Of a DNA stretch of 35,686 bases, positions 2,878 through 15,229 are shown one piece after another. Made by a program: the position numbers and the translations under genes. Source of the DNA: a virus. The notes below the pieces were generated by a model. That model was not told the DNA's origin, ran no database searches, and worked only from the letters and a program-made list of their open reading frames with translations. The stretch covers positions 1 through 35,686 of IMG/VR virus record IMGVR_UViG_3300022413_000026; one strand, written 5' to 3'. Position 1 is the first letter of the stretch, and every line of letters begins with the position of its first letter.

Positions 2878-3263
2878 GGGGCGCGCTAGACATCGTGCGT
2901 GACTACCTGGCTGCCGTAGAGCATCAACGTGAAGCCGAGGAAAGGCGACTCGAATACCTCTACGAGCTTGTGGATACGCTGCCGGGTAAGTCCGAGGGCA
3001 CGACCACCACAATGGTCACCGACGTCGTACAACCCGACGCCTACTCCGTGGCCATCACGCGAAAGTTCAACCGCACCATTGACGTGGGCGAAGTCGACAA
3101 GCTCCACAACATGATAGACATCGAGCGCTTCTTCAAAAAGAAGTATGAGCTCCGCGTCAGTGAATGGCGTAAAGCTGACGAGATGGAGACGCTTGCGTTG
3201 TCACGGGTTATCACCACCAGACAAGGACGGCCGTCTGTCCAAATTAAAAAGGTCGAAGAATGA
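2874..3263 (+). CDS. Hypothetical early protein, 129 aa
   Basis: It starts with GTG at 2874 overlapping the previous stop (GTGA) and ends in a 4-base overlap with the Sak4-like gene. The first 45 residues are strongly charged and likely helical or coiled-coil. The C-terminal part, with an FFKKKYEL segment and an RQGRPSVQIKK tail, is of the kind often found in small phage proteins encoded just upstream of single-strand annealing ATPases. I do not recognise a named domain. Tight coupling to the next gene suggests they work in the same process. Confidence 0.7.
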   Translation: MRGALDIVRDYLAAVEHQREAEERRLEYLYELVDTLPGKSEGTTTTMVTDVVQPDAYSVAITRKFNRTIDVGEVDKLHNMIDIERFFKKKYELRVSEWRKADEMETLALSRVITTRQGRPSVQIKKVEE

Positions 3264-3928
3264 AGCTGACCAACACACGTGACGTTCACGAACAAGGCAT
3301 CAAGGTTCTCGTCTATGGCAACGCGGGTACCGGCAAGACAACCCTCATCAAGACGTGCCCCGGCAAACAAATCATTCTCAGCGCCGAGGCTGGTCTGCTG
3401 TCCTTGGCGGGCGAAGACATCGACACCGTCAACATCGACAGCCTGGAGTCGTTGCACGAGGCGTACAGCTTCCTCAAGGACGGCGAACACGCGTACGAAT
3501 GGCTGTGCCTGGATTCCATCAGCGAGATTGCCGAGGTAGTACTACATCGAGAGATGCAGGCCACAAAAGACCCCCGCAAGGCGTACGGCGAACTACACCA
3601 AAAGGTCGGGCAGCTTTTACGGGCCTTTCGTGACATCCCCGAACGCAACGTCTATTTCTCAGCCAAGCAACAACGCTTCACCGACGACGCTGCCGGCACC
3701 GTGACGTACGGACCCGGCATGCCCGGACAAGCACTCGGGCAATCCATCCCTTACATATTCGATGAGGTGTTTTGCCTTCGAGTAGAGCGCGACTCGGAGG
3801 GCGACCTTCAGCGCACCCTTCAGACCGGACCCGATAACCGCTTCCAAGCCAAGGACCGGAGCGGCCGCCTGGATATGTTCGAGCCGGTCGACCTGACCCT
3901 TATCACCAACAAAATTCGAGGACAGTAA
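3260..3928 (+). CDS. Sak4-like P-loop ATPase (AAA_24), recombination/annealing protein
   Basis: A 222-residue RecA-core protein with Walker A GNAGTGKTTL at about residues 21-30 and a Walker B-like strand ending in LDS at about 83-86. Proteins of this size and motif set are the phage Sak4 family, RecA-like ATPases that act in single-strand annealing or in loading recombination proteins. The start is ATG at 3260, overlapping the previous stop by 4 bases. It is followed 3 bases later by a DUF669 gene and then a Cas4-like nuclease, a common phage arrangement for replication-linked recombination. Confidence 0.8.
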   Translation: MKLTNTRDVHEQGIKVLVYGNAGTGKTTLIKTCPGKQIILSAEAGLLSLAGEDIDTVNIDSLESLHEAYSFLKDGEHAYEWLCLDSISEIAEVVLHREMQATKDPRKAYGELHQKVGQLLRAFRDIPERNVYFSAKQQRFTDDAAGTVTYGPGMPGQALGQSIPYIFDEVFCLRVERDSEGDLQRTLQTGPDNRFQAKDRSGRLDMFEPVDLTLITNKIRGQ

Positions 3929-3931
3929 ACA

Positions 3932-4390
3932 ATGCCACAATTACCGTACGACAACACGCAGGTCAAAGAAGATGACTGGCGCCAAGTTCCACCGGGACAG
4001 TACCTCGCCCAGGTACGAGGGTCGGCAGAACATTCAAACGCCCACGGCACGGGAGCCTATATCCGTGTCCAGTTCAGAATCGTGGCTGGCCCTTACAAGG
4101 ATTCCATCATCGGAAACACCTACAACCATGTGCATGCAAACACCGAAGCCGAACGTATCGGCCGGCAGCAGCTGAAGGCATTAGGCGTGGTGTGCGGTGT
4201 GCCCAACATGCAGGCCACTGAAGAGATACACGGCAAGAACGTATCCATCAAGGTTGTAGCTAACGGGACGTACAGCGACATCGCTGCCGTGTGGAAACCG
4301 GAGGCGGTCGGACCTACGGCAAACCCCAACGGTTCCACGGACCAAGCCGATGCCGACACCGGTGGGACTCGGGCACCGTGGGATGCCTAA
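3932..4390 (+). CDS. DUF669 family protein (probable ssDNA-binding protein)
   Basis: A 152-residue protein whose N-terminal 110 residues follow the DUF669 pattern: PPGQYLAQV, then a mixed strand region with YIRVQF and an IGNTYNH segment. The Asp-rich C-terminal tail ends in APWDA, similar to the acidic partner-binding tails of single-strand DNA-binding proteins. DUF669 genes are typically beside Sak4-like ATPases, as here. Single-strand DNA binding is a family-level inference. The stop overlaps the next gene's ATG by 8 bases. Confidence 0.72.
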   Translation: MPQLPYDNTQVKEDDWRQVPPGQYLAQVRGSAEHSNAHGTGAYIRVQFRIVAGPYKDSIIGNTYNHVHANTEAERIGRQQLKALGVVCGVPNMQATEEIHGKNVSIKVVANGTYSDIAAVWKPEAVGPTANPNGSTDQADADTGGTRAPWDA

Positions 4391-5219
4391 AATTGGCGAG
4401 TCGTCCCACGGGACGCTAAACCAAATCGAGCTTGCCGTCCTGGCTCGAGCCAAACAGGAACAGCGCCCCCACCTCGGGGCGTCTGTTCTTGGATACCGGT
4501 GCGAACGCCGTGTCCAGTTCACGTTCCGATGGGCTTATCGGGAATCTTTCCCGGCGCGCATTCTTCGTCTCTTCAAACGTGGCGAACGCGAGGAAGCCGT
4601 GTTTGTGGACTTGTTACGCGACGCCCACATCCTCGTATGGGAGACCGACAGCGACGGTGAGCAGTTCGGCTTTAAGGACGGACACTTCGCCGGGTCCATC
4701 GATGGCTTCGCTGCCCGTCTGCCCGAGGCACCACAAACCGTACACCTGCTGGAGTTCAAGACCCACGGGGAGAAAAGTTTCAAGACCTTGACCAAGGCAC
4801 AGTCAATAGCCAAGTCACACCCGCAGCACTACGTACAAGTTCAGGTCTACATGCATGCGTTACACGTGACCAGAACGTTGTACCTGGCAGTCAACAAGAA
4901 CACCGACGCGCTATACATGGAACGTGTGCGACTGGACAAGGAATTCGCCACATACCAGAACGAACGCGCGCAGATGATTATTGCTGAGACCAGACTCATG
5001 CCGCCTATCTCAAGTGACCCGTCCTGGTATGAGTGCAAGATGTGCCCGTTCCATCCGGTGTGCCATGAAAACGTCCCGTTACAGGTCAGCTGCCGAACCT
5101 GTACACACGCACAGGCCCGCCGGGACGGGACGTGGTTCTGTAACAAGCATGAGAACCTGCTCACCATCGACCACCAACGCGAGGCCTGTAATGACCACGA
5201 GCCATTCGATAGAGATTGA
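4383..5219 (+). CDS. Cas4/RecB-like PD-(D/E)XK exonuclease with predicted Fe-S cluster
   Basis: The nuclease motifs are visible in order: GSIDG (the metal-binding Asp), LEFKTHG (the E-x-K pair) and a downstream HYVQVQVYMHAL helix typical of RecB-family motif Q-xxx-Y. A cysteine near the N-terminus (YRCERR) plus a C-terminal CKMCPFHPVC cluster match the four-cysteine Fe-S arrangement of Cas4 and AddB nucleases. A second Cys/His-rich tail follows (CRTCTHAQ, CNKHE, CNDHE), which could bind zinc and is less usual. The ATG at 4383 overlaps the previous stop; a further ATG at 4350 is possible. It likely resects DNA ends for the Sak4/DUF669 module. Confidence 0.78.
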   Translation: MPKIGESSHGTLNQIELAVLARAKQEQRPHLGASVLGYRCERRVQFTFRWAYRESFPARILRLFKRGEREEAVFVDLLRDAHILVWETDSDGEQFGFKDGHFAGSIDGFAARLPEAPQTVHLLEFKTHGEKSFKTLTKAQSIAKSHPQHYVQVQVYMHALHVTRTLYLAVNKNTDALYMERVRLDKEFATYQNERAQMIIAETRLMPPISSDPSWYECKMCPFHPVCHENVPLQVSCRTCTHAQARRDGTWFCNKHENLLTIDHQREACNDHEPFDRD

Positions 5220-5463
5220 CTTGGACGACGCGTTTCAAGCAGCCGTGACCCTGTCGCGTGTAGCCAAGTACCACCACGAGTTCGAGACCCTGGCAGCGGA
5301 CACCGCCAAGGCAGCCCGGTGGCTGGCTGACCAGCACCGCCGGTGCGAACTGTGTGAACACTACCTCGGCGGCGCCTGCCGCCAGGCTGGTGGGAGGACG
5401 GTCCCCGCCGAGGTCATCCCCAAGGGCTGCCCATCGTTCGAGTACCAGTACATCCCATTCTAG
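5191..5463 (+). CDS. Small Cys-containing early protein, 90 aa
   Basis: ATG at 5191 has GAGG about 6 bases upstream and lies inside the last 29 bases of the nuclease gene. The N-terminal half is acidic and helical. The C-terminal half carries CELC, GGAC and KGC in a C-x2-C-x6-C...C pattern that could hold one zinc ion. I recognise no named family. It ends the first early operon, immediately before the strong promoter at 5480. Confidence 0.65.
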   Translation: MTTSHSIEIDLDDAFQAAVTLSRVAKYHHEFETLAADTAKAARWLADQHRRCELCEHYLGGACRQAGGRTVPAEVIPKGCPSFEYQYIPF

Positions 5464-5479
5464 GCGGTGCAGAAAGTTG

Positions 5480-5508
5480 TTGACAGGTAAGCTGGTACCA
5501 AGTATAAA
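5480..5508 (+). promoter_or_regulatory. Strong sigma-70 promoter P2
   Basis: TTGACA (5480-5485) is a perfect -35 box and TATAAA (5503-5508) a near-perfect -10 box, with a 17-base spacer. The spacer and flanks (GCAGAAA upstream, ACCAAGTATA at the -10) are closely shared with the promoter at 6854. It drives the gene at 5544. Confidence 0.8.
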
Positions 5509-5543
5509 GGACGTCCCTACCACAACAGACGAGAGCTAAGACC

Positions 5544-6131
5544 ATGTTCACCGAACCTAACATGAACACCGACATCATCATCCTGGACACCGACACCCTG
5601 GCATCGTTTGGCAAGTGCGTCGACGTGGACACCGCCACCGCCACCGCCAACCGTATCGTGCCGCAGAATCACGGGTATGTCCTCTATGACGAGTTTGACC
5701 TGCTCACCAAGCTGTCCGCTAAGGAACAGCTGACCGTTTTCAACTCGATGCTGAACCTCAACGGCGCCGACGCCGTGAAGCCCAGAGAGAACCGCTTCAC
5801 GAGCAAGGCTGCCGGCGCCAGGGCCATCATGGAGGCGGCGGTGCTTCACACGCACACCCACAAGGTCGCCAAGAAGGCGCCCACCAAGGCGCCCACCACG
5901 GACACGCCGGAAGTGCCCAAGAACGAGGCACGGGACCGTGCGCATCGCTCCGGCAACTGCGCCCGCGTCTGGGCAATCTGTGACGAGTTGAACGAGTTGG
6001 GTGCAGCCGTGCGCAAGAACGTCATCGCGTGCGCCTCCGCCGAGGGTATCCCCAAGGCCACGTCAAGCACCCAGTTCCAGAAGTGGCGGCACCGCCCCCA
6101 TATACACGTGGCTAGGGACCAGGAAGACTAG
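5544..6131 (+). CDS. Hypothetical protein with C-terminal QF-x-W-R module
   Basis: A 195-residue protein expressed from its own strong promoter. The N-terminal ~95 residues contain a helical segment (YDEFDLLTKL, TVFNSMLNL, FTSKAAGARAI) resembling the small helical domain found at the start of several phage regulators. A low-complexity Lys/Thr/Pro linker follows at about 105-130. The last ~55 residues carry a module with CARVWAICDEL, a run ending in GIPKAT and then QFQKWR. The same module ends the next gene and appears in reduced form at the start of the third. Its helix-rich, Arg-ending form suggests nucleic-acid or protein binding. No enzymatic motif is visible. Confidence 0.7.
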   Translation: MFTEPNMNTDIIILDTDTLASFGKCVDVDTATATANRIVPQNHGYVLYDEFDLLTKLSAKEQLTVFNSMLNLNGADAVKPRENRFTSKAAGARAIMEAAVLHTHTHKVAKKAPTKAPTTDTPEVPKNEARDRAHRSGNCARVWAICDELNELGAAVRKNVIACASAEGIPKATSSTQFQKWRHRPHIHVARDQED

Positions 6132-6147
6132 ACAAGGGATGACCACG

Positions 6148-6165
6148 GGGCCAAGGACGGCCCAC
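6148..6165 (+). repeat. Intercistronic GGGCC hairpin element, copy 1
   Basis: GGGCC and GGCCC flank six bases and can pair. The same 18-base element recurs three times at 8053-8116. It lies between two genes, upstream of the GTG at 6192, and has no T-run, so it is more likely an RNA-processing or stability element than a terminator. Confidence 0.5.
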
Positions 6166-6191
6166 CTCCCTGGACCACACCGGAGCGACCC

Positions 6192-6842
6192 GTGCCCCCC
6201 TCGGATTCCTACCACGCTACCCTGATTCAGTCCGGTGCCTATAACGAGGCCAACGACTGCACCGTCATCGCCACCGCCGTCGTCACCGGCCTGGACTACG
6301 GCTCTGCCCATCAGCTGCTTGCCTCGTACGGCCGTCGGCCACGCTGCGGTCTCCCACCCGGTCACTACCACGCGGCCATTGCTGCGCTCGGGTTCACGGT
6401 CCAGCGCATACACCTGGACAGCTTACGTACGCCAGGCCAGGGCGGCTTCGGCCCGGTCAGCATCGAACGTGTCCTCCGCCGGTGGTGTCGGGGACGCAAG
6501 TTCTTCGTGTCGTTCCGGGGCCACGTCGCGGCGTTCGATGGCGAACGGTTAGCGGACTGGACCCGAGGTCGCCGCCACCACGTCCGTCACGTATACGAAG
6601 TCATCCCTCCGCTGGCCCCTACCGTCTCCGAGGCCCCTACCCGCCCCACTCCCACAGCCGCCCCGGCGAAATCCCGTCAGCGTGGAGCCTGTGCGTCCGT
6701 GTGGGCTGTTTGCGATGACCTCGCGACCTGGAACCACACCGTCACCTCGGCAATGGCCATCGGTGCGTGCCTGGACAAGGGCCTGAACAAGGCCACCGCT
6801 GCCAGGCAGTTCCAGCACTGGCGGAAGGCTCGAGGACACTAG
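6192..6842 (+). CDS. Papain-like cysteine peptidase-fold protein with C-terminal QF-x-W-R module
   Basis: Start is GTG at 6192 with GGAG about 7 bases upstream. The first ~135 residues match a phage papain-like pattern: NDCTVIATA (candidate catalytic Cys near residue 19), then a helical part and a late strand pair with GHVAAF (candidate His) and ADWTRGRR (candidate Asp). A Pro/Ala/Thr linker follows and then the module shared with the previous gene (CASVWAVCDDL, LNKATAARQF, WRK). Proteins with an NDC...GH...DW pattern are widespread in phages and generally uncharacterised. Early expression argues for acting on a host protein rather than for lysis. Peptidase activity is inferred from residue order only. 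Confidence 0.65.
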   Translation: MPPSDSYHATLIQSGAYNEANDCTVIATAVVTGLDYGSAHQLLASYGRRPRCGLPPGHYHAAIAALGFTVQRIHLDSLRTPGQGGFGPVSIERVLRRWCRGRKFFVSFRGHVAAFDGERLADWTRGRRHHVRHVYEVIPPLAPTVSEAPTRPTPTAAPAKSRQRGACASVWAVCDDLATWNHTVTSAMAIGACLDKGLNKATAARQFQHWRKARGH

Positions 6843-6853
6843 GCAGAAACCTG

Positions 6854-6882
6854 TAGACAAGTAACTAGGCACCAAGTATATT
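6854..6882 (+). promoter_or_regulatory. Sigma-70 promoter P3, near-duplicate of P2
   Basis: TAGACA (6854-6859) and TATATT (6877-6882) with a 17-base spacer. The stretch from GCAGAAA through ACCAAGTATA aligns with P2 at 5480, which points to duplication of a promoter or shared binding of a regulator. It drives the gene at 6920. Confidence 0.7.
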
Positions 6883-6919
6883 CGACCTACCTACACCGGT
6901 CCCTTGCCTGGAGGCCACT

Positions 6920-8059
6920 ATGAATACCTTTGACCGTATCATCAGCGACATGCGCTTCTGCCTTGATAACCCGGCCGAGTTCACCGGCCGCAATGGCTTC
7001 TCACTCACCAGCGCCATGCGCACCGTCGTCGCGCTCAACCCTGGCGTCGTCCGTGATGAGTTTGTCCAGGCACTCGGCGCGATGGGGTACAACACCGAGA
7101 CCGTGGCGCGCCAGTTCCGTGCGTCCCGCAAGCTTGACCAGGAGACAACGACCATGAGCACCAAGACCCACAGCGAAGACCTGTCCTTCTCCGACCTGGA
7201 AGACCCTGGCGAATGGACCAAGCAGACCCAGGTCCACGGCAAGGCCGTCGAGCCCATCAACGACGACATCGCCGCCATCACCCTGGGCACCGGCCAGAAC
7301 GAGGCCACCACGGCACGCTACGAAGAAAGCTGCCACAAGTGCCGGGGCTCCGGTCTCTTTCGTGGCTACTCCGGGCGCATCGTCGGTGACTGCTTCGCGT
7401 GCAAGGGCAAGGGCAAGCTCTACTACAAGACGTCGCCCGAGACCCGCCAGGCGCGCAAGGACTACAGTGCCAAACGCAAGGCCAAGAAGGCCACCGAGAA
7501 GGCTGCCGCCCTGGCCTCGTGGTCCGACGAACACGCCACCGAGGTGGCATACCTGAAGGCACGCGCCGGCCGTTGGAACTTCGCCGACTCCCTGCTTGAG
7601 AACCTCGGCAAGTTCGGCTCCCTCACGCCGGGGCAGCTTGCGGCCGTTCGCAAGTGCATGGACAAGGACGCCGAGAAGGCTGCCGCTGCCAAGGTTGCCC
7701 CGGACACCGGGCTCGACCTGTCCGGCGTCCCGTCCGGTTTGTACGCTGTCCCCGACGGCGAGACCCGGCTCAAGCTGCGCATCGCCCGTCCCCGGAAGCC
7801 GTCGAACTGGCACGGGTACATCTTCGTCAGCGACGGCGCCGAGTACGGCTCACGGACAAACTACGGGCGCCAGGCTCCGGGGCAGTCCTACTCGGGCAAG
7901 TGCATCGAACAGCTGCGCGCCGTTGCCACGGACCCCGCCGCCGCGATGGCCGCTTACGGTCACCTCACCGGCACGTGTGGCAAGTGCGGTCGCAAGCTCG
8001 AAGACGAGGAAAGCGTGGCACGCGGCATCGGTCCGGTCTGTGCCAAAAAGATGGGCTGA
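6920..8059 (+). CDS. Zinc-ribbon protein with DUF6011-like C-terminus
   Basis: A 379-residue protein with three visible parts. Residues 1-75 resemble the helical module of the two preceding genes, ending in ETVARQFRASRK. Residues about 135-170 hold two CxxCxGxG knuckles (CHKCRGSG and CFACKGKG), a DnaJ-type zinc finger, followed by a Lys/Ala-rich helix. The last ~110 residues end with CGKCGRKLEDEESVARGIG then PVC, the signature of the DUF6011 family found in many phages and actinobacteria. The role is unknown; zinc binding is well supported by the cysteine spacing. The DUF6011 name is a recall of the motif. ATG at 6920 follows GGAGG by about 6 bases. Confidence 0.75.
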   Translation: MNTFDRIISDMRFCLDNPAEFTGRNGFSLTSAMRTVVALNPGVVRDEFVQALGAMGYNTETVARQFRASRKLDQETTTMSTKTHSEDLSFSDLEDPGEWTKQTQVHGKAVEPINDDIAAITLGTGQNEATTARYEESCHKCRGSGLFRGYSGRIVGDCFACKGKGKLYYKTSPETRQARKDYSAKRKAKKATEKAAALASWSDEHATEVAYLKARAGRWNFADSLLENLGKFGSLTPGQLAAVRKCMDKDAEKAAAAKVAPDTGLDLSGVPSGLYAVPDGETRLKLRIARPRKPSNWHGYIFVSDGAEYGSRTNYGRQAPGQSYSGKCIEQLRAVATDPAAAMAAYGHLTGTCGKCGRKLEDEESVARGIGPVCAKKMG

Positions 8060-8132: not shown

Positions 8133-8537
8133 ATGGGATACGCAACAACGCTCGTAAGCACCAACGAACAAATCGACACGGTAGGCCGCATGCTTCGTCC
8201 GGGGCAACAAATCAACGTAGCCAAGTTGGCTGCGCAATTAGGTTGGACCAAGGACCGGCTCCACCCGGTTAAACGGGAGATGATGCGGCGCGGCTTCCTG
8301 ACCGAGGAACGTCGCGCACGTATGTCGGCAACGTTGACGTTCCACAACCCGCCACTGCCTGAGAGCGAACGCCAGATGCCTAAGATGCGACACACGGCGA
8401 AGGCCACCCCGGAGACGGGGGCTCGACCCTGGCAATGCCACACGGTCAAGACCTGGACCATCACGGGTGGCACGTTCACGGCTGAAGAACTCAAGAGCCT
8501 TGCCCGGTCTGTGCTGAAGCACTTGGATGAGCTCTAG
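8133..8537 (+). CDS. Small winged-helix-like protein
   Basis: A 134-residue protein with GAGG about 8 bases before its ATG. The segment at residues 27-65 (INVAKLAAQLGWTKDRL followed by a second helix and a strand) has the length and spacing of a winged helix-turn-helix. The C-terminal third is unlike anything I recognise. Its TAG is directly followed by the queE ATG with no gap, so it probably heads the deazaguanine operon. A regulatory role is an inference from the fold guess and position. Confidence 0.6.
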   Translation: MGYATTLVSTNEQIDTVGRMLRPGQQINVAKLAAQLGWTKDRLHPVKREMMRRGFLTEERRARMSATLTFHNPPLPESERQMPKMRHTAKATPETGARPWQCHTVKTWTITGGTFTAEELKSLARSVLKHLDEL

Positions 8538-9236
8538 ATGTTCGGCGACAACCCCATCCGCAAACAAGTAGACGATGACAAGCTCTGGGTCCAATCCATC
8601 TTCTACACGCTGCAAGGCGAGGGACCCTTTGCCGGTACGCCGGCTGTGTTCATACGCCTTGCCGGTTGTAACCTTCGCTGCTGGTGGTGTGACACGGAGT
8701 TCGAGTCCGGGTTCCAGGACCCGGACAACTATCAGGACGTGGCAACAATCGCCCGCCAGGCTCTCGACCTGTCCACACCCTGCGACCTTGTCGTACTCAC
8801 GGGTGGCGAACCACTGCGACAGAACGTTGGCCCGTTGATGGACAAGCTGTTGGATATGGGCTTCCGTGTCCAGGTTGAAACGGCTGGCACCGTCATGCCG
8901 GACGACGTCCCGCTGACGCACCCGAACCTGTACATCGTCTGCTCACCCAAGACCCCGAAGCTGCATAAACTCATGGTTCACGCGGCAGCATGGAAGTACA
9001 TCATCCGAGCCGACGACGTGGACGATGCGGACGGGTTGCCAATCGAGTCCACGCAAACCAGGGGCCTGGCAGTACCACCGGCACGTCCGACAAACAGCGC
9101 ACCCGTGTTCGTATCTCCGTGTGACGAATACGACCCGGCTGCTAATCAACGCAACCTGCAAGCTGCCGCACGAGCGTGCCTTGAATATGGATACCGACTC
9201 ACCACCCAACTACACAAAGGAATAGGGCTGCCATGA
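8538..9236 (+). CDS. queE: 7-carboxy-7-deazaguanine synthase QueE (radical SAM)
   Basis: QueE converts 6-carboxytetrahydropterin to 7-carboxy-7-deazaguanine, the third step to preQ0. The radical SAM cluster is complete at C44, C48 and C51 in CNLRCWWC, preceded by FYTLQGEGPFAG, the QueE hallmark. The SAM-binding GGEP lies at 89-92, and the C-terminal QLHKGIGLP is typical of the family. At 232 residues it has the usual length. It overlaps queD by 4 bases (ATGA). The operon context with queD, queC, folE and dpdA shows it serves DNA modification rather than tRNA queuosine. Confidence 0.95.
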   Translation: MFGDNPIRKQVDDDKLWVQSIFYTLQGEGPFAGTPAVFIRLAGCNLRCWWCDTEFESGFQDPDNYQDVATIARQALDLSTPCDLVVLTGGEPLRQNVGPLMDKLLDMGFRVQVETAGTVMPDDVPLTHPNLYIVCSPKTPKLHKLMVHAAAWKYIIRADDVDDADGLPIESTQTRGLAVPPARPTNSAPVFVSPCDEYDPAANQRNLQAAARACLEYGYRLTTQLHKGIGLP

Positions 9237-9661
9237 TATCAGTCACCAAACAATACCGCGCCGAGATTGGCCACCGTCTCATGAACTACGACGGCAAGTG
9301 TGCCCACCTCCACGGGCACAGTTATCTGTTCGAGGTCACAGTGGAGGCGTTGGACCTCGATGACCGGGGCATGGTGGTGGACTTCTCCGACCTGAAGAAA
9401 GCCATGCGGATTGTGCTCGAGCCGTACGACCATGCCCTGGTGCTACGTGACGACGACCACCTCGCACGGATGTTCGAGGACCTCCGTGCTACGAACGGTG
9501 AGTCTGCCCGCCTTCACTTGTGGGCGAACAACCCCACAGCCGAGAACATGGCATCGCGATTCGGCTCACTCATCGACAACATGCTTCCACGTGGTGTGCG
9601 TCTCACCCATATCCGCGTATGGGAAACCGCCACCAGTCACGCAGACTGGAGTCCGTCATGA
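9233..9661 (+). CDS. queD: 6-carboxytetrahydropterin synthase QueD
   Basis: QueD turns dihydroneopterin triphosphate into 6-carboxytetrahydropterin. The zinc ligands H14, H27 and H29 are visible (EIGHRL and CAHLHGHSY), the catalytic C23 lies in the same motif, DHALV supplies the second catalytic residue, and the PTAENMA segment matches the family's late glutamate motif. At 142 residues the length is slightly above average. It overlaps queE and queC by 4 bases each. Confidence 0.95.
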   Translation: MISVTKQYRAEIGHRLMNYDGKCAHLHGHSYLFEVTVEALDLDDRGMVVDFSDLKKAMRIVLEPYDHALVLRDDDHLARMFEDLRATNGESARLHLWANNPTAENMASRFGSLIDNMLPRGVRLTHIRVWETATSHADWSPS

Positions 9662-10323
9662 AAGTCGTCGTCAGTTACTCGGGCGGCATGGACAGCTACA
9701 CGCTGCTGCATGACGCCGTTCACCAGGGCCACGAGGTGTCCGCGTTGTCGTTCAACTATCGACAGCGCCACGTGGTCGAGCTCGAAAACTCCGTCACGGT
9801 TTGCGAGATGCTCGGCGTCCCGCATCAGCTGGTAGATATCGAGTTCCTCCACGAGCTCGCCAGTAACTCAGCCCTGACGCATGGCATGGACGTGCCCGAG
9901 GGACACTACACCGACGCCAGCATGCGGAAGACCGTGGTGCCCAATCGCAACATGGTGTTTACGTCCATCGCAATCGCACACGCGGTCAACCTGGAGATGG
10001 ACGAAGTGTGGCTCGGACAACATGCCGGCGACCACGCCGTGTACCCGGATTGCAGACCGGCCTTCGTGGCACTGATGGACGGCGTGGCGCAGATTGCGAA
10101 CTGGCACCCGGTTCGAGTTCGGGCACCGTATCAAGACCTGGACAAGACCGGCATTCTTACCCGTGGCCAGGCCATCGGCCTGGGACCGCACCACTACGCC
10201 GACACGTGGACGTGCTACCAGCCACAGGGCTACACGGCGTGCGGTAAGTGCGGCAGCTGTACCGAACGGCTGGAAGCGTTTGACGCTGTCGGCTGGGCCG
10301 ACCCACTGGAGTATGCACAGTGA
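9658..10323 (+). CDS. queC: 7-cyano-7-deazaguanine (preQ0) synthase QueC
   Basis: QueC uses ATP and ammonia to convert 7-carboxy-7-deazaguanine to preQ0. The PP-loop SGGMDS is at residues 8-13, and the C-terminal zinc site is C186, C195, C198 and C201 ([16 protein letters not shown]). At 221 residues it is of normal length and shows no added amidotransferase (Gat) domain of the kind some phages use to make preQ1-like or formamidine bases. The ATG at 9658 overlaps the queD stop (ATGA); the same frame opens further upstream but has no better start. Confidence 0.95.
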
Positions 10324-11219
10324 CTCACGAGACCTACTACGTACAGCACGGAGACCTCCAACGACGCGCGGCGGAGATTGCAACGCAGCTTACGCCTGGG
10401 GTTGCTTTGTACGGCATCCCTCGCGGCGGCATCCCCGCCATGTACGCTGTGATGGCAATGAAGGACCGGCGCGGCCCCTTTCGTATCACCAGCCACCCGC
10501 AAGATGCCGACGTCTTCATTGACGACATCATCGACAGCGGGGCAACCAGAGCCACGTTTGCACATCGGTTCCCCGGTGTCCCGTTCCATGCCTTGTACGA
10601 CAAAAGTGGAGCGGACAAGGACATGCGAGGCTTATGGCACGTCTTCCCCTGGGAGGACAGCGAAGAATTTTCAGCCGACGATATCTGCACACGCCTGCTC
10701 CAGTTCATCGGCGAAGACCCGACACGCGGCGGCCTCAAGGAAACACCGGCACGGTTCTTGAAAGCCTGGCGGCACTGGACCAAGGGCTACGGCGAAGACC
10801 CCGCCGAGGTGCTGAAGACCTTCGAGGACGGCGCCGCCAACTATGACGAGATGGTGGTGGAGAAGAACATCCCGGCATGGTCGACCTGTGAACACCATCT
10901 TGCTGCTGTTCGTGGTGTGGCTCACGTTGGCTACATTCCTAACGGCAAGATTGTGGGGCTCAGTAAGCTGAACAGGCTCGTTGACACGTTCGGCCGTCGG
11001 CTCCAGGTACAGGAACGATGGACGACACAGATTGCCGATGCCCTGGTCCAACACCTGAACCCGAAAGGTGTTGCCGTTGTCATCGAGGCCGAGCACATGT
11101 GTATGTCATCTCGGGGCGTGTGTCACCAGGACGCCACCACCATCACATCCGCGATGCGTGGTGCGTTGATGGACAAGCCCGAGGCTCGAGCGGAGTTCTT
11201 GAGACTAATCGGCAAATGA
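10320..11219 (+). CDS. folE: Phosphoribosyltransferase-GTP cyclohydrolase I (FolE) fusion
   Basis: Residues about 119-299 are a GTP cyclohydrolase [18 protein letters not shown] at 130-146, the zinc ligands C190 and H193 in CEHHL and C261 in MCMSSRGV, and the conserved [10 protein letters not shown] stretch. It makes dihydroneopterin triphosphate from GTP for QueD. Residues 1-110 are a short type I phosphoribosyltransferase-like domain with GIPRGG at 32-37 and the PRPP loop [13 protein letters not shown] at 65-77. GTP cyclohydrolase I normally has no such domain. Its starting GTG overlaps queC by 4 bases and its end overlaps dpdA by 4. Reading through both domains shows no frameshift, so this looks like a true fusion. 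What the first domain does is unknown. Confidence 0.9.
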
Positions 11220-12124
11220 AAACAGAAGGCGTAAAGGTTGGACGCTGCCAGCGTATCTACTTGGCATCAGTCTATGCGACTGGACGGTATTACGTTGAGC
11301 CGGTGGCAGACTACGCATACATCCTGGAGTCGTACCACTACATCGGCAACGCACCTAACAGGCAGGACCTGTTAAGAGAACACAGCTGCCGTATCTTCTT
11401 GGACTCCGGTGCGTTCTCCGCGTTTACCTTGGGCACGTCTGTAGATATTCAGGCATACGCACGGTTCATTGTAGAGAACAAGGACATTGTTGACGTGGCG
11501 TCCGTGTTGGACGGCATCGGCGATGCACAACTAACGCTAGACAATCAACACCGACTAGAGGACCTCGGTGCTACCGTGTTGCCGTGCTTTCATTTTGGCG
11601 AAGACACCAAGTACCTGGAACACTACCTCAACAACTATGACCACATCACAATCGGCGGGATGGTTCCAATAAGCAACAGCCAGTTGCGACCGTGGCTGGA
11701 CCACTTGTGGTCGACGTACTTGACCGACAGCGCCGGGTGGCCACTGGTCAAGGTGCACGGGTTCGGGCTGACCGCTATGGACCTCGTCCGGAGGTATCCG
11801 TGGTACTCCGTGGACTCGTCATCGTGGGTCCAATCCGGGGCATTCGGACACGTCGCGTTGATTACTGATGGCGGGATGATTAAGACCGTAACCGTGTCCG
11901 AGCAAAGTCCGAACGTGCACGATAGCAATCAGCATTACGACAACATGCCGCCATACGTTCAGGACTGCCTGCGCGAAGACATAGAACAGTATGGCTACGA
12001 CATCGACACGCTGCGTACAGATATCCGAGCACGCAAACAACACAACGCCAAGGTCTACGCAGCCCTTGGCACGCGCGAACTGTTTCCCTACACCACCACC
12101 ACCACCGGAGACTTGTTCCAATGA
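11216..12124 (+). CDS. dpdA: DpdA-like DNA guanine transglycosylase
   Basis: A 302-residue relative of tRNA-guanine transglycosylase, of the phage DpdA type that swaps guanine in DNA for a 7-deazaguanine base. Visible family motifs are [10 protein letters not shown] at 61-70 (a catalytic Asp candidate), a DGIGD segment, the IGGMVP turn, KVHGFG and a YSVDSSSW strand. The zinc-binding Cys cluster of true tRNA enzymes is not evident, which fits DpdA. The ATG at 11216 overlaps folE. The operon shows its substrate should be preQ0. The exact base and sequence context modified cannot be read from DNA alone. Confidence 0.85.
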
Positions 12125-12234
12125 GAAACCTATTTGACGACGAAACATTCAACGAGGTGGATTGCTGCATAGCGGCCATCTACATCATCGTTGGCGGTAC
12201 GTACATCGCGACCCTGTTGTGGTTCCTGTTGTGA
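12121..12234 (+). CDS. 37-residue single-pass membrane protein
   Basis: ATG at 12121 overlaps the dpdA stop (ATGA) and the stop at 12232 overlaps the clamp gene's GTG (GTGA). The first ~14 residues are acidic; residues about 15-37 (CCIAAIYIIVGGTYIATLLW onward) form one hydrophobic helix. The precise overlaps on both sides argue that it is translated. I recognise no family. Confidence 0.6.
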   Translation: MRNLFDDETFNEVDCCIAAIYIIVGGTYIATLLWFLL

Positions 12235-13175
12235 AGGCCGTACTCGACCGCGTGCGTGGAGCCGTAGCCAAGAAGAACCTGCTACCGATTCTGACTTCCT
12301 TCTGTGTTCAGGACGGCACCATCCAAGGCAGCAACGGCTTCGTCACCGTGGGCGCCTTGTGCCCGGAGCTAGACATAGACTTCGCTGTACAGGCAGACAA
12401 GTTCATCAAGGCTATTGATGCGTGCCCCGATGAGCCCACCCTCCGACTGCTGGACTCCGGGCAGCTGTCCATATCCTCGGGACGGTTCCGTGCTAGGCTG
12501 CCTACCAGACCGACGGCAGACTACCCCCAGGTCACGCGGCTATCTGGTCACGCTGACGTACCACAAGAACTCCGCCAGGCGCTGCAAGACATTCGTCCGT
12601 TCATTGGCACCGATGCCTTCCGGGCATGGAGCCACGGCGTCCTCGTGAAAGATGGCTACATGTGGGCTACTAATAACGTGGTCCTAGTGCGGCGCCCGTT
12701 TACCTACAACGGTCCCGCCGCCGTGTGGCCAGCCGCCCTGGTAGATGAGCTGCTACGTGTGAAGCAGACACCGGCCAGCTACGTCCACACAGCCACACAC
12801 GCCGAGTTCCTCTACACGGACGGCAGCTGGCTGGTTGGCAGCTTGATACACCCGGACTGGCCCGACGTCGAGAAGTTCTTCAACGACCCGTGGCCGCCAC
12901 TGGTGGGACCGGACCTGCCTGAGTTGCTGGAGGCCGTGGAGACCGTGGTGCCCTTCTGTCCGGACCTCCCAGTCGTACAGCTGTCCGAGACGGGCGTGGA
13001 GACCGAGGACGGGGAAACACACGCCTCCGTGAAGATATCCGGTCTCCGTCCAGCCAGGCTCCGTGTGGAACCCTTCCTGGACGTTCTCCGCGCCGCCGAG
13101 GTGGTGGACTTCGACGACACACCGTACCGGTGGCGGGGCAAGGGCATGGAAGGTGTGCTCGTGGGCATGCGATGA
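12231..13175 (+). CDS. DNA polymerase sliding clamp (DnaN-like)
   Basis: A 314-residue protein with the overall pattern of bacterial beta clamps: an early helix (LDRVRGAVAKKNLLPIL), short strands (DGTIQGSNGF), QADKFIKAID, and the LSISSGRFRARLP plus DYPQV region of the first repeat. Similar clamp-like proteins occur in some siphoviruses. Start is GTG at 12231, overlapping the small membrane gene, and the end overlaps the polymerase gene by 4 bases. It presumably tethers the adjacent polymerase. Similarity is moderate and read by eye, so a diverged clamp-like fold is the safe statement. Confidence 0.68.
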   Translation: MKAVLDRVRGAVAKKNLLPILTSFCVQDGTIQGSNGFVTVGALCPELDIDFAVQADKFIKAIDACPDEPTLRLLDSGQLSISSGRFRARLPTRPTADYPQVTRLSGHADVPQELRQALQDIRPFIGTDAFRAWSHGVLVKDGYMWATNNVVLVRRPFTYNGPAAVWPAALVDELLRVKQTPASYVHTATHAEFLYTDGSWLVGSLIHPDWPDVEKFFNDPWPPLVGPDLPELLEAVETVVPFCPDLPVVQLSETGVETEDGETHASVKISGLRPARLRVEPFLDVLRAAEVVDFDDTPYRWRGKGMEGVLVGMR

Positions 13176-15229
13176 AAGTCCGCTACGACAGCGACGGCCT
13201 ATGGTGGGATACACCACCGCCAGACCTCACCAGTCGCACGAGGACGCCTCGTAGCCTCGCACCTATACCCGAAAGCCCCTGGACCCCTTCTCGTGGCTTA
13301 CCGTCGCTGTCAGGAGTTCACAGGGTAGGGCTCGACGTGGAAACCTGGGACCCGGACCTACTGACGAAGGGCCCAGGCTGGGCGCGTGGGGTCGGCCACC
13401 TCGTGGGTATCTCCCTGGCGGTGGAAGACCGGTCCTGGTATCTCCCGTTCCGTCACACCGTGCAGCCCGAGCTAAACCTGGACCCGGACCACGTCTTGGC
13501 CTGGGCGCGAGATGAGCTGCCCAAGGTACCCCACATCATCGGGGCCAATCTGATGTACGACATCGGGTGGCTCTGGTTCGAGGGCGTACGGTTTCCTGTG
13601 ACGACACGATTCCACGACGTCCAGTTCGCTGAGCCACTTCTCAACGACGTCACCCGTGGGTACTCCCTGGACAAGCTGGCAGAGAAGTACCTGGACGAGA
13701 CGAAGGTCACGCACGATCTATACCGGTGGTGTGCCCGGTCCTACGGTGGCCAGCCCACCCCCGCCCAACGAGCCAACATCCACCGGGCGCCGCCGTCATT
13801 GGTCGGACCCTATGCCGAGGCCGATGCCTCGTTGCCCATGCGCATTCTCACTAAGCAGTATCCCGCGTTACAGGCACAGGGCCTCGCCGAGTTGTTCGAC
13901 ATAGAGTGCCGCTTGATTCCGTTGCTTATTCAAATGCGCTTGCGTGGTGTGCGTGTGGACGTGACCGGTGCTGAGCAGGTACGTGACCGGCTGCTTGAGA
14001 AGGGCCAAGCCCTACAGCATGAACTTGACCGGCACGCTGGCTTCGATGTGAACATGTACAACGCCGGCAACACACTGGCACGGTTGTTTGATGACGTCGG
14101 GATTCCTTACCCAAGAACGAACAAAGGCGCGCCCAGCTTCCGTGCTCCCTGGCTGAAGGCTCAACCCCACCCGGTGGCGCGACTGGTCAATGAACTGCGC
14201 CGTGTCGAAAAGATGCGCGTCACGTTCGTCGAAGGCTACGTGCTGGACTCACACATCAACGGACGGTTGTTCTGCCAGTTCCACCCACTACGTACCGACG
14301 ACAGTGGCGCCGTGTCCGGACGGTTCTCATCCAGCACACCGAACTTGCAGAACATCCCGGCTCGAGACCCGGAGTTCGGTCCGCTGATACGTGGCCTGTT
14401 CTTACCGGACGAGGGATACAACACGTGGCGCAAGCTGGACTATTCGCAAATTGAATACCGACTCTTTGCCCACTACAGCGGAGATGCCGACCTTGTCCGG
14501 GCTTACCAAGAACCGACGACGGACTTCCATGACGTAGCCGGTGCGATGCTCGGCGGCAGTCTGCCTCGCGCCGTCGTGAAGACGTTCAACTTCATGACGC
14601 TGTATGGCGGAGGACCGTACCGCCTGGCGGAGATGCTCAAGGAACTCATGAACACCACGGAGGCCACCAAGCTTCTGGACAGTCTGCCGGAGTTGGCGAA
14701 CACAGAAGACGAGACGTTGTACTTCCGGCTCGCGCTCACGGTGCAGCGTGTATACGCCGACCGGTTCCCGGCAGCACGACGCCTGGCGAGTAGTTCGATG
14801 CAGGAAGCTACACGCACCGGAGAGGTTCGTACCGTGCTCGGGCGCGTGAACCGGTTTCCATTGTTCGTGCCTCGCTACAGTCGTGTGTCAGCCACACCGT
14901 TACCACTGGACGCGGCGCGCCTGGCGTACGGTTCAAACCTGGAACGCGCAGGCACACACAAGGCGTTGAACCGTAGGCTACAAGGCTCAGCGGCAGACCT
15001 CATGAAGCTAGCCATGCTGCGGTGCTACGAAGCGGGGCTCTATGACCACCTCGGATTCCCGCATCTCACGGTGCACGATGAAACGGACCACAGTGACCCG
15101 GACCCCGGTGACCCGGCCTGGCGAGAGTTGGTGCACATCATGGAAAACAGTTTGCCACTTCGTGTTCCCGTCCGAGTCACACAAGCCGCAGGCCCGAACT
15201 GGGGCCACTTAAAGGAAGCAACACCATGA
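13172..15229 (+). CDS. Family A DNA polymerase with 3'-5' exonuclease
   Basis: The replicative polymerase, 685 residues. The proofreading domain has all three exonuclease motifs: D54/E56 in LDVETW, N126/D130 in GANLMYD, and Y214/D218 in YAEAD. The polymerase domain has motif A LDYSQIEYR (D423), motif B with R466, K470, F474 and Y478-G, and motif C VHDE at 634-637. Motif B carries Phe at the E. coli Pol I position 762 equivalent, the ancestral state, rather than the Tyr or Leu seen in some phages. No 5'-3' exonuclease domain is present. ATG at 13172 overlaps the clamp gene (ATGA). Confidence 0.95.
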   Translation: MKVRYDSDGLWWDTPPPDLTSRTRTPRSLAPIPESPWTPSRGLPSLSGVHRVGLDVETWDPDLLTKGPGWARGVGHLVGISLAVEDRSWYLPFRHTVQPELNLDPDHVLAWARDELPKVPHIIGANLMYDIGWLWFEGVRFPVTTRFHDVQFAEPLLNDVTRGYSLDKLAEKYLDETKVTHDLYRWCARSYGGQPTPAQRANIHRAPPSLVGPYAEADASLPMRILTKQYPALQAQGLAELFDIECRLIPLLIQMRLRGVRVDVTGAEQVRDRLLEKGQALQHELDRHAGFDVNMYNAGNTLARLFDDVGIPYPRTNKGAPSFRAPWLKAQPHPVARLVNELRRVEKMRVTFVEGYVLDSHINGRLFCQFHPLRTDDSGAVSGRFSSSTPNLQNIPARDPEFGPLIRGLFLPDEGYNTWRKLDYSQIEYRLFAHYSGDADLVRAYQEPTTDFHDVAGAMLGGSLPRAVVKTFNFMTLYGGGPYRLAEMLKELMNTTEATKLLDSLPELANTEDETLYFRLALTVQRVYADRFPAARRLASSSMQEATRTGEVRTVLGRVNRFPLFVPRYSRVSATPLPLDAARLAYGSNLERAGTHKALNRRLQGSAADLMKLAMLRCYEAGLYDHLGFPHLTVHDETDHSDPDPGDPAWRELVHIMENSLPLRVPVRVTQAAGPNWGHLKEATP

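Follow-up and report, generated by a model that had tools for sequence, protein, structure and literature searches.

A predicted helix-turn-helix-like module in neighbouring genes beside the 7-deazaguanine pathway of a phage

Genes of the locus

The window (the whole stretch of DNA analysed here, 35,686 nucleotides of IMG/VR record IMGVR_UViG_3300022413_000026) carries three adjacent genes on the plus strand, here called P1, P2 and P3. P1 (5544–6131) encodes 195 aa, arranged as an N-terminal part, a linker and a C-terminal module (residues 131–187; 5934–6104). P2 (6192–6842) starts with GTG and encodes 216 aa, made up of a papain-like domain (6192–6620) with the candidate residues Cys23, His111 and Asp122, and a C-terminal copy of the module (residues 158–216; 6663–6839). 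P3 (6920–8059) encodes 379 aa, in which what appears to be a diverged N-terminal copy (residues 31–76; 7010–7147) is fused to a zinc-ribbon/DUF6011 protein. The initial annotation had located all three genes correctly, and their reading frames and translations are as it described. The C-terminal half of P1 matches phrog_7864 (E = 7.7e-9), whilst P2 matches phrog_3754 over residues 15–137 and phrog_7864 over residues 144–215. Residues 90–379 of P3, with a DnaJ-like cysteine cluster, match phrog_4046 (1.6e-53) and residues 343–379 match DUF6011 (2.5e-15), the first ~85 residues of the protein being extra.

Upstream of P1, on the same strand, lies a block (3260–5219) comprising a Sak4 annealase (3260–3928, phrog_124), a DUF669 SSB-like protein (3932–4390, phrog_6015) and a Cas4-like exonuclease (4350–5219, phrog_1990), an order that relatives keep. 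Downstream of P3, the 7-deazaguanine pathway (8538–12124) is encoded in the order queE (8538–9236), queD (9233–9661), queC (9520–10323), folE (10320–11219) and dpdA, the last within an ORF at 11018–12124. It is followed by a sliding clamp (12162–13175) and by a polymerase-like ORF (13130–15229) matching the RTasPolA profile at 1.9e-11, all on the plus strand. A 7-deazaguanine phage is recognised by dpdA together with folE, queD, queE and queC; all five are present, and the window is, as judged by gene content, that of such a phage.

In nearly all relatives an SF2 helicase gene is situated between the exonuclease and the module genes. No homologue of it was found anywhere in the 35.7-kb record, where a gap (5219–5544) occupies this place, and the record may be incomplete. 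The position of the relatives' class C module gene is taken in the window by a 134-aa ORF (8133–8537), which has no significant match in Pfam or NCBIfam and gives an unexplained 13 bits (E = 0.0025) against a profile of the class B N-terminus. FolE (10320–11219) has an N-terminal extension of ~120 residues, of which residues 65–116 weakly match the phosphoribosyltransferase family phrog_8995; long FolE proteins are also seen in some relatives.

Homology and predicted fold of the module

The C-termini of P1 and P2 are clearly homologous in sequence, the two segments (residues ~131–187 and ~158–216) being 42% identical in direct comparison (E = 1.8e-9). With a profile of 15 sequences from other phages, the window members having been left out, P2 (E = 1e-17) and P1 (E = 1.6e-15) ranked first and second among the 520 ORFs of the window. 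Against a profile of 118 external copies they scored 54–56 bits (55.8 for P1), the best unrelated ORF reaching 6.6 bits. The initial annotation had proposed that a module of ~50 residues is common to all three genes, and for P1 and P2 this holds against profiles that contain no window sequence.

The case for the N-terminus of P3 is weaker and is made through an intermediate homologue and controls. Against the 118-copy profile, residues 31–76 scored 9.6 bits (E about 0.02), which is weak alone but higher than any of 20,000 shuffled versions of this stretch, the best scoring 9.0 bits. A stand-alone protein of 82 aa from Stenotrophomonas phage ply2008005c acts as a bridge, matching P3 residues 7–79 (tblastn, E = 3e-5) and scoring 22 bits against an independent module profile. 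The pair formed by P3 and this protein aligned with the modules over ~37 columns in profile–profile comparison by hhalign (probability 94–95%, E about 1e-7), and scored 38.1 against templates from outside the window, the maximum of 300 column-shuffled templates being 14.3. P3 by itself ranked third of the 520 ORFs by profile–profile score (24.7, the next at 16.4).

The QF-x-W-R type motif originally noted in all three proteins is found as QFQKWR in P1 and QFQHWR in P2, and reads QFRASR, with no Trp, in P3. The wider signature of Trp17, Thr48, Thr51, Gln52 and Trp56 is complete in P1; P2 has Arg at position 51, and P3 keeps Thr48 and Gln52 and lacks both tryptophans. Stenotrophomonas gp11 is without the Gln. 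Because P3 lacks both conserved tryptophans, the sharing of the module by three genes is only partly confirmed. It could be argued that P1 and P2 alone share it and that the likeness of P3 arose by chance, as the weak direct score, the two missing tryptophans and the short alignment might suggest. The failure of every shuffle, the existence of an intermediate homologue, decoys scoring far below and a helix spacing that recurs in the unaided fold prediction of P3 make such a coincidence improbable, and support the P3 N-terminus as a diverged copy.

The module is about 55 residues long and helical, as had been anticipated. An AlphaFold2 model of the P2 copy based on 64 sequences places helices at residues 12–26, 32–41 and 46–60 of a 62-aa construct, with a core pLDDT of about 90. 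When the P3 N-terminus was folded without relatives, helices were predicted at residues 29–39, 45–54 and 59–75, which is the same helix–gap–helix–gap–helix spacing but at low confidence (pLDDT 68), and a structure search of the PDB with this model was uninformative. Thr48 and Gln52 are invariant in the 64 aligned copies (64/64), and Trp17, Arg32, Thr51 and Trp56 each occur in more than 90% of them; the mean net charge is +2.6 for helix 3 and −0.8 for helix 1.

Foldseek searches of viral models returned the same family (TM about 0.7–0.8), with R7M, Iggy, PSTCR7 and JG054 as named members. The best neighbours of the module model in the PDB were mostly HTH, winged-HTH or homeodomain proteins (Zalpha, DeoR, Lrp/AsnC, MntR, engrailed, FadR and Fur), none of which was significant (best E 2.3, best Z 5.5), and a sequence search of the PDB with the module profile also gave nothing significant. 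The likeness to these folds (Zalpha 4kmf, DeoR 7bhy, Lrp-type proteins, engrailed) lies in the three-helix arrangement and the basic third helix. In contrast to them, the module has no significant sequence or structure score, no predicted wing, and an invariant T..TQ...W signature of its own. Three-helix bundles match many structures by chance, which weighs against an HTH reading; even so, the modelled domain is probably a compact, three-helix, HTH-like one, for which DNA binding is predicted.

Distribution of the module and its fusion partners

With a class C query the module was detected in 150 of 50,697 phage records, and two further module queries detected it in 34 and 40. Three types of module protein recur. 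Those of type A have a 'KSSA.RAAK' or other N-terminus, with zinc-ribbon-like cysteines in some, those of type B have a 'VLID..L' N-terminal domain, and those of type C have a K/A/E-rich tail and 'NGVTRPKAGTKTGRVWEIAD...ATAATQYGRWRKYHGL'. Scanning IMG/VR with that class C query yielded 24 loci, of which 22 lie inside the same helicase–queE gene block; searches of IMG/VR for relatives starting from P2 and from Stenotrophomonas gp11 found none. Nearly all loci that span both the helicase and queE have two or three module genes in a row between these two genes. As this is the normal arrangement in relatives, the sharing of the module by neighbours is a conserved trait of the phage group. The notion of a mobile domain, put forward in the initial annotation, is not supported as regards recent or haphazard spread within one phage; the window copies also form no clade of their own, in a weak tree of 63 columns that cannot place P1 and P2.

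In whole-record searches each of 19 related deazaguanine phages showed 2–5 copies of the module; the five distant DpdA-bearing phages searched (Edwardsiella ZHS, Bipper, CRB2, Epa33 and phi38:2) showed none. The deazaguanine pathway is present in every phage record that was followed up among the module-search matches listed. Two IMG/VR loci have no pathway genes nearby. The first belongs to a 99-kb virus whose gene layout differs and in which folE, queC and queE, with a weak TGT-like match, are found elsewhere in the record; the second, a 26-kb record, has the module without folE, queC or dpdA. Within phages the module thus travels with the deazaguanine trait, yet not all such phages have it, and it also occurs outside them. 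Much of this association, which is not corrected for phylogeny, is accounted for by the gene block having been inherited from a common ancestor; the 99-kb virus is the one case of it outside the common block. In this virus (locus L044, record G001) the module occupies residues 530–583 of a 724-aa protein (3390–5561), the rest of which has no Pfam match.

The module also turns up in a few bacterial contigs that have no phage block. In Massilia (locus L048, 1059–1418) the gene of the module protein has that of a MobA/MobL relaxase nearby, which puts the domain on a possible mobilisable element as well. A DpdA profile gave two weak matches in module-holding bacterial genomes, and control genomes such as E. 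coli match it too. In mycobacteriophages and Cellulophaga phage phi38:2 (loci L053, L054 and L056), which are without the module, dpdA has as its neighbour a ParB-like gene, whose product is possibly another DNA-binding partner in lineages that lack the module.

The joining of the module to otherwise different sequences, as the initial annotation described it, is borne out beyond the window, where its partners include the 'VLID..L' domain, the 'KSSA.RAAK' N-terminus, putative zinc-ribbon stretches, K/A/E-rich tails and the 724-aa protein. Residues 1–143 of P2 are papain-like (phrog_3754) and 34% identical to the protein of Acidovorax phage ACP17, and Cys23, His111 and Asp122 are invariant in five homologues, making this part a candidate enzyme domain in which Cys–His–Asp catalytic residues appear to be present. 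In a profile search of the PDB the best match to it was ComA peptidase (E = 0.81), which is not significant. The papain-like proteins of ACP17, Curvibacter P26059A and UAVern are stand-alone proteins of about 145 aa, and those of ACP17 and Curvibacter P26059A, unlike P2, have no module. The P3 homologue of a Rhizobium phage adjoins the module genes of that phage but lacks the N-terminal module. P2 and P3 are therefore fusions absent from the relatives examined, i.e., local variants. The N-terminal part of P1 is possibly a diverged 'VLID..L' domain, and its position and its collinearity with class B N-termini suggest that P1 corresponds to the conserved class B gene. It was not accepted as an established class B orthologue, as the score of its N-terminus is not significant (E = 0.2–1.4). 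The effectors of the initial annotation are putative: P2 alone among the three proteins carries a candidate enzyme domain.

Proposed role and relation to known systems

Each phage of the group keeps a small set of module paralogues that differ outside the module. The best explanation, held with about even confidence, is that the module, as an HTH-like domain, contacts DNA and would hold different proteins at the phage DNA or at a replication–modification complex. Helix 3, which is basic and carries the invariant Thr and Gln, would most likely contact the DNA, and the attached part, be it the papain-like enzyme of P2, the zinc-ribbon protein of P3 or the N-terminus of P1, would be brought to the phage DNA or to the replication–modification machinery. 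This recruitment may take place early in infection and might influence base modification. The absence of both tryptophans from P3 and of the Gln from Stenotrophomonas gp11 weakens this explanation.

The initial annotation suggested instead that the module directs its carriers to one partner, to be looked for in host lysate. A common ligand is consistent with Thr48 and Gln52 being invariant across paralogues, but with an HTH-like fold DNA is no less probable a ligand than a protein, and nothing points to a host protein. A protein partner is possible in the form of docking, whereby all copies would bind one phage (or host) protein, e.g., DpdA, the clamp or the helicase, and would thereby gather different proteins in a single complex. 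The adjacency of module genes to helicase, dpdA and clamp genes, and the occurrence of the module at either end of a protein, would agree with docking; given the HTH-like fold, the basic helix 3, bacterial copies outside this gene neighbourhood and the lack of any known partner, it is considered rather unlikely.

Lower still is the likelihood that the paralogues serve separately as phage transcription or nucleoid proteins of an ordinary kind, with a DNA-binding domain shared through an old duplication and no joint function. The fold itself, the deep divergence of the classes and the K/A/E-rich tails of class C are what such regulators might show, and the annotation of several relatives reads 'transcriptional activator', with no test behind the name; the genes, however, stay adjacent in phages whose hosts range from Vibrio to Rhizobium, pointing to roles that are joint or coordinated.

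A further, improbable reading is that the module reads 7-deazaguanine-modified DNA or guides DpdA to its sites. If it were a reader, the phages would mark their own DNA and one small domain would then bring several different enzymes only to marked DNA. A requirement of the module for modification was rejected in that form. Because the distant DpdA phages lack the module and the DNA of Rosebush is modified with dPreQ0 using a proposed minimal gene set (PMC6884629), base insertion can in general proceed without the module.

No name or model for the module exists in Pfam, NCBIfam or PADLOC, and no description of it was found in the literature searched. PHROG families 7864, 18634, 11298, 21588 and 17772, all of 'unknown function', contain the same C-terminal module, phrog_7864 covering the C-terminal half of P1 and the C-terminus of P2. 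These families are clusters of whole proteins; none treats the shared domain as a separate unit or includes the P2 and P3 fusions as such. What is new is a family of HTH-like domains linked to a phage trait already known: an unnamed domain that is, in 2–5 copies, a lineage signature of phages hiding their DNA with 7-deazaguanines, with its genes directly beside the modification operon. In genetically tractable coliphages such as CAjan and 9g, the module genes offer a concrete, unstudied set for asking what else the pathway needs, for instance what sets the modified fraction and sites, or how the phage deals with modified DNA. That both a papain-like enzyme and a zinc-ribbon protein are joined to the same domain could reveal what gets recruited.

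Among the closest known systems is the block of modification genes for 7-deazaguanines (dPreQ0/dG+) in Queuovirinae, e.g., in CAjan and 9g (Hutinet 2019, PMC6884629). Both this block and the window have the gene order Sak4–SSB–exonuclease ... queE, folE, dpdA, clamp and polymerase. Unlike the CAjan/9g block, the window has no helicase between the exonuclease and P1 and no class C gene before queE, and carries the papain-like and zinc-ribbon fusions instead.
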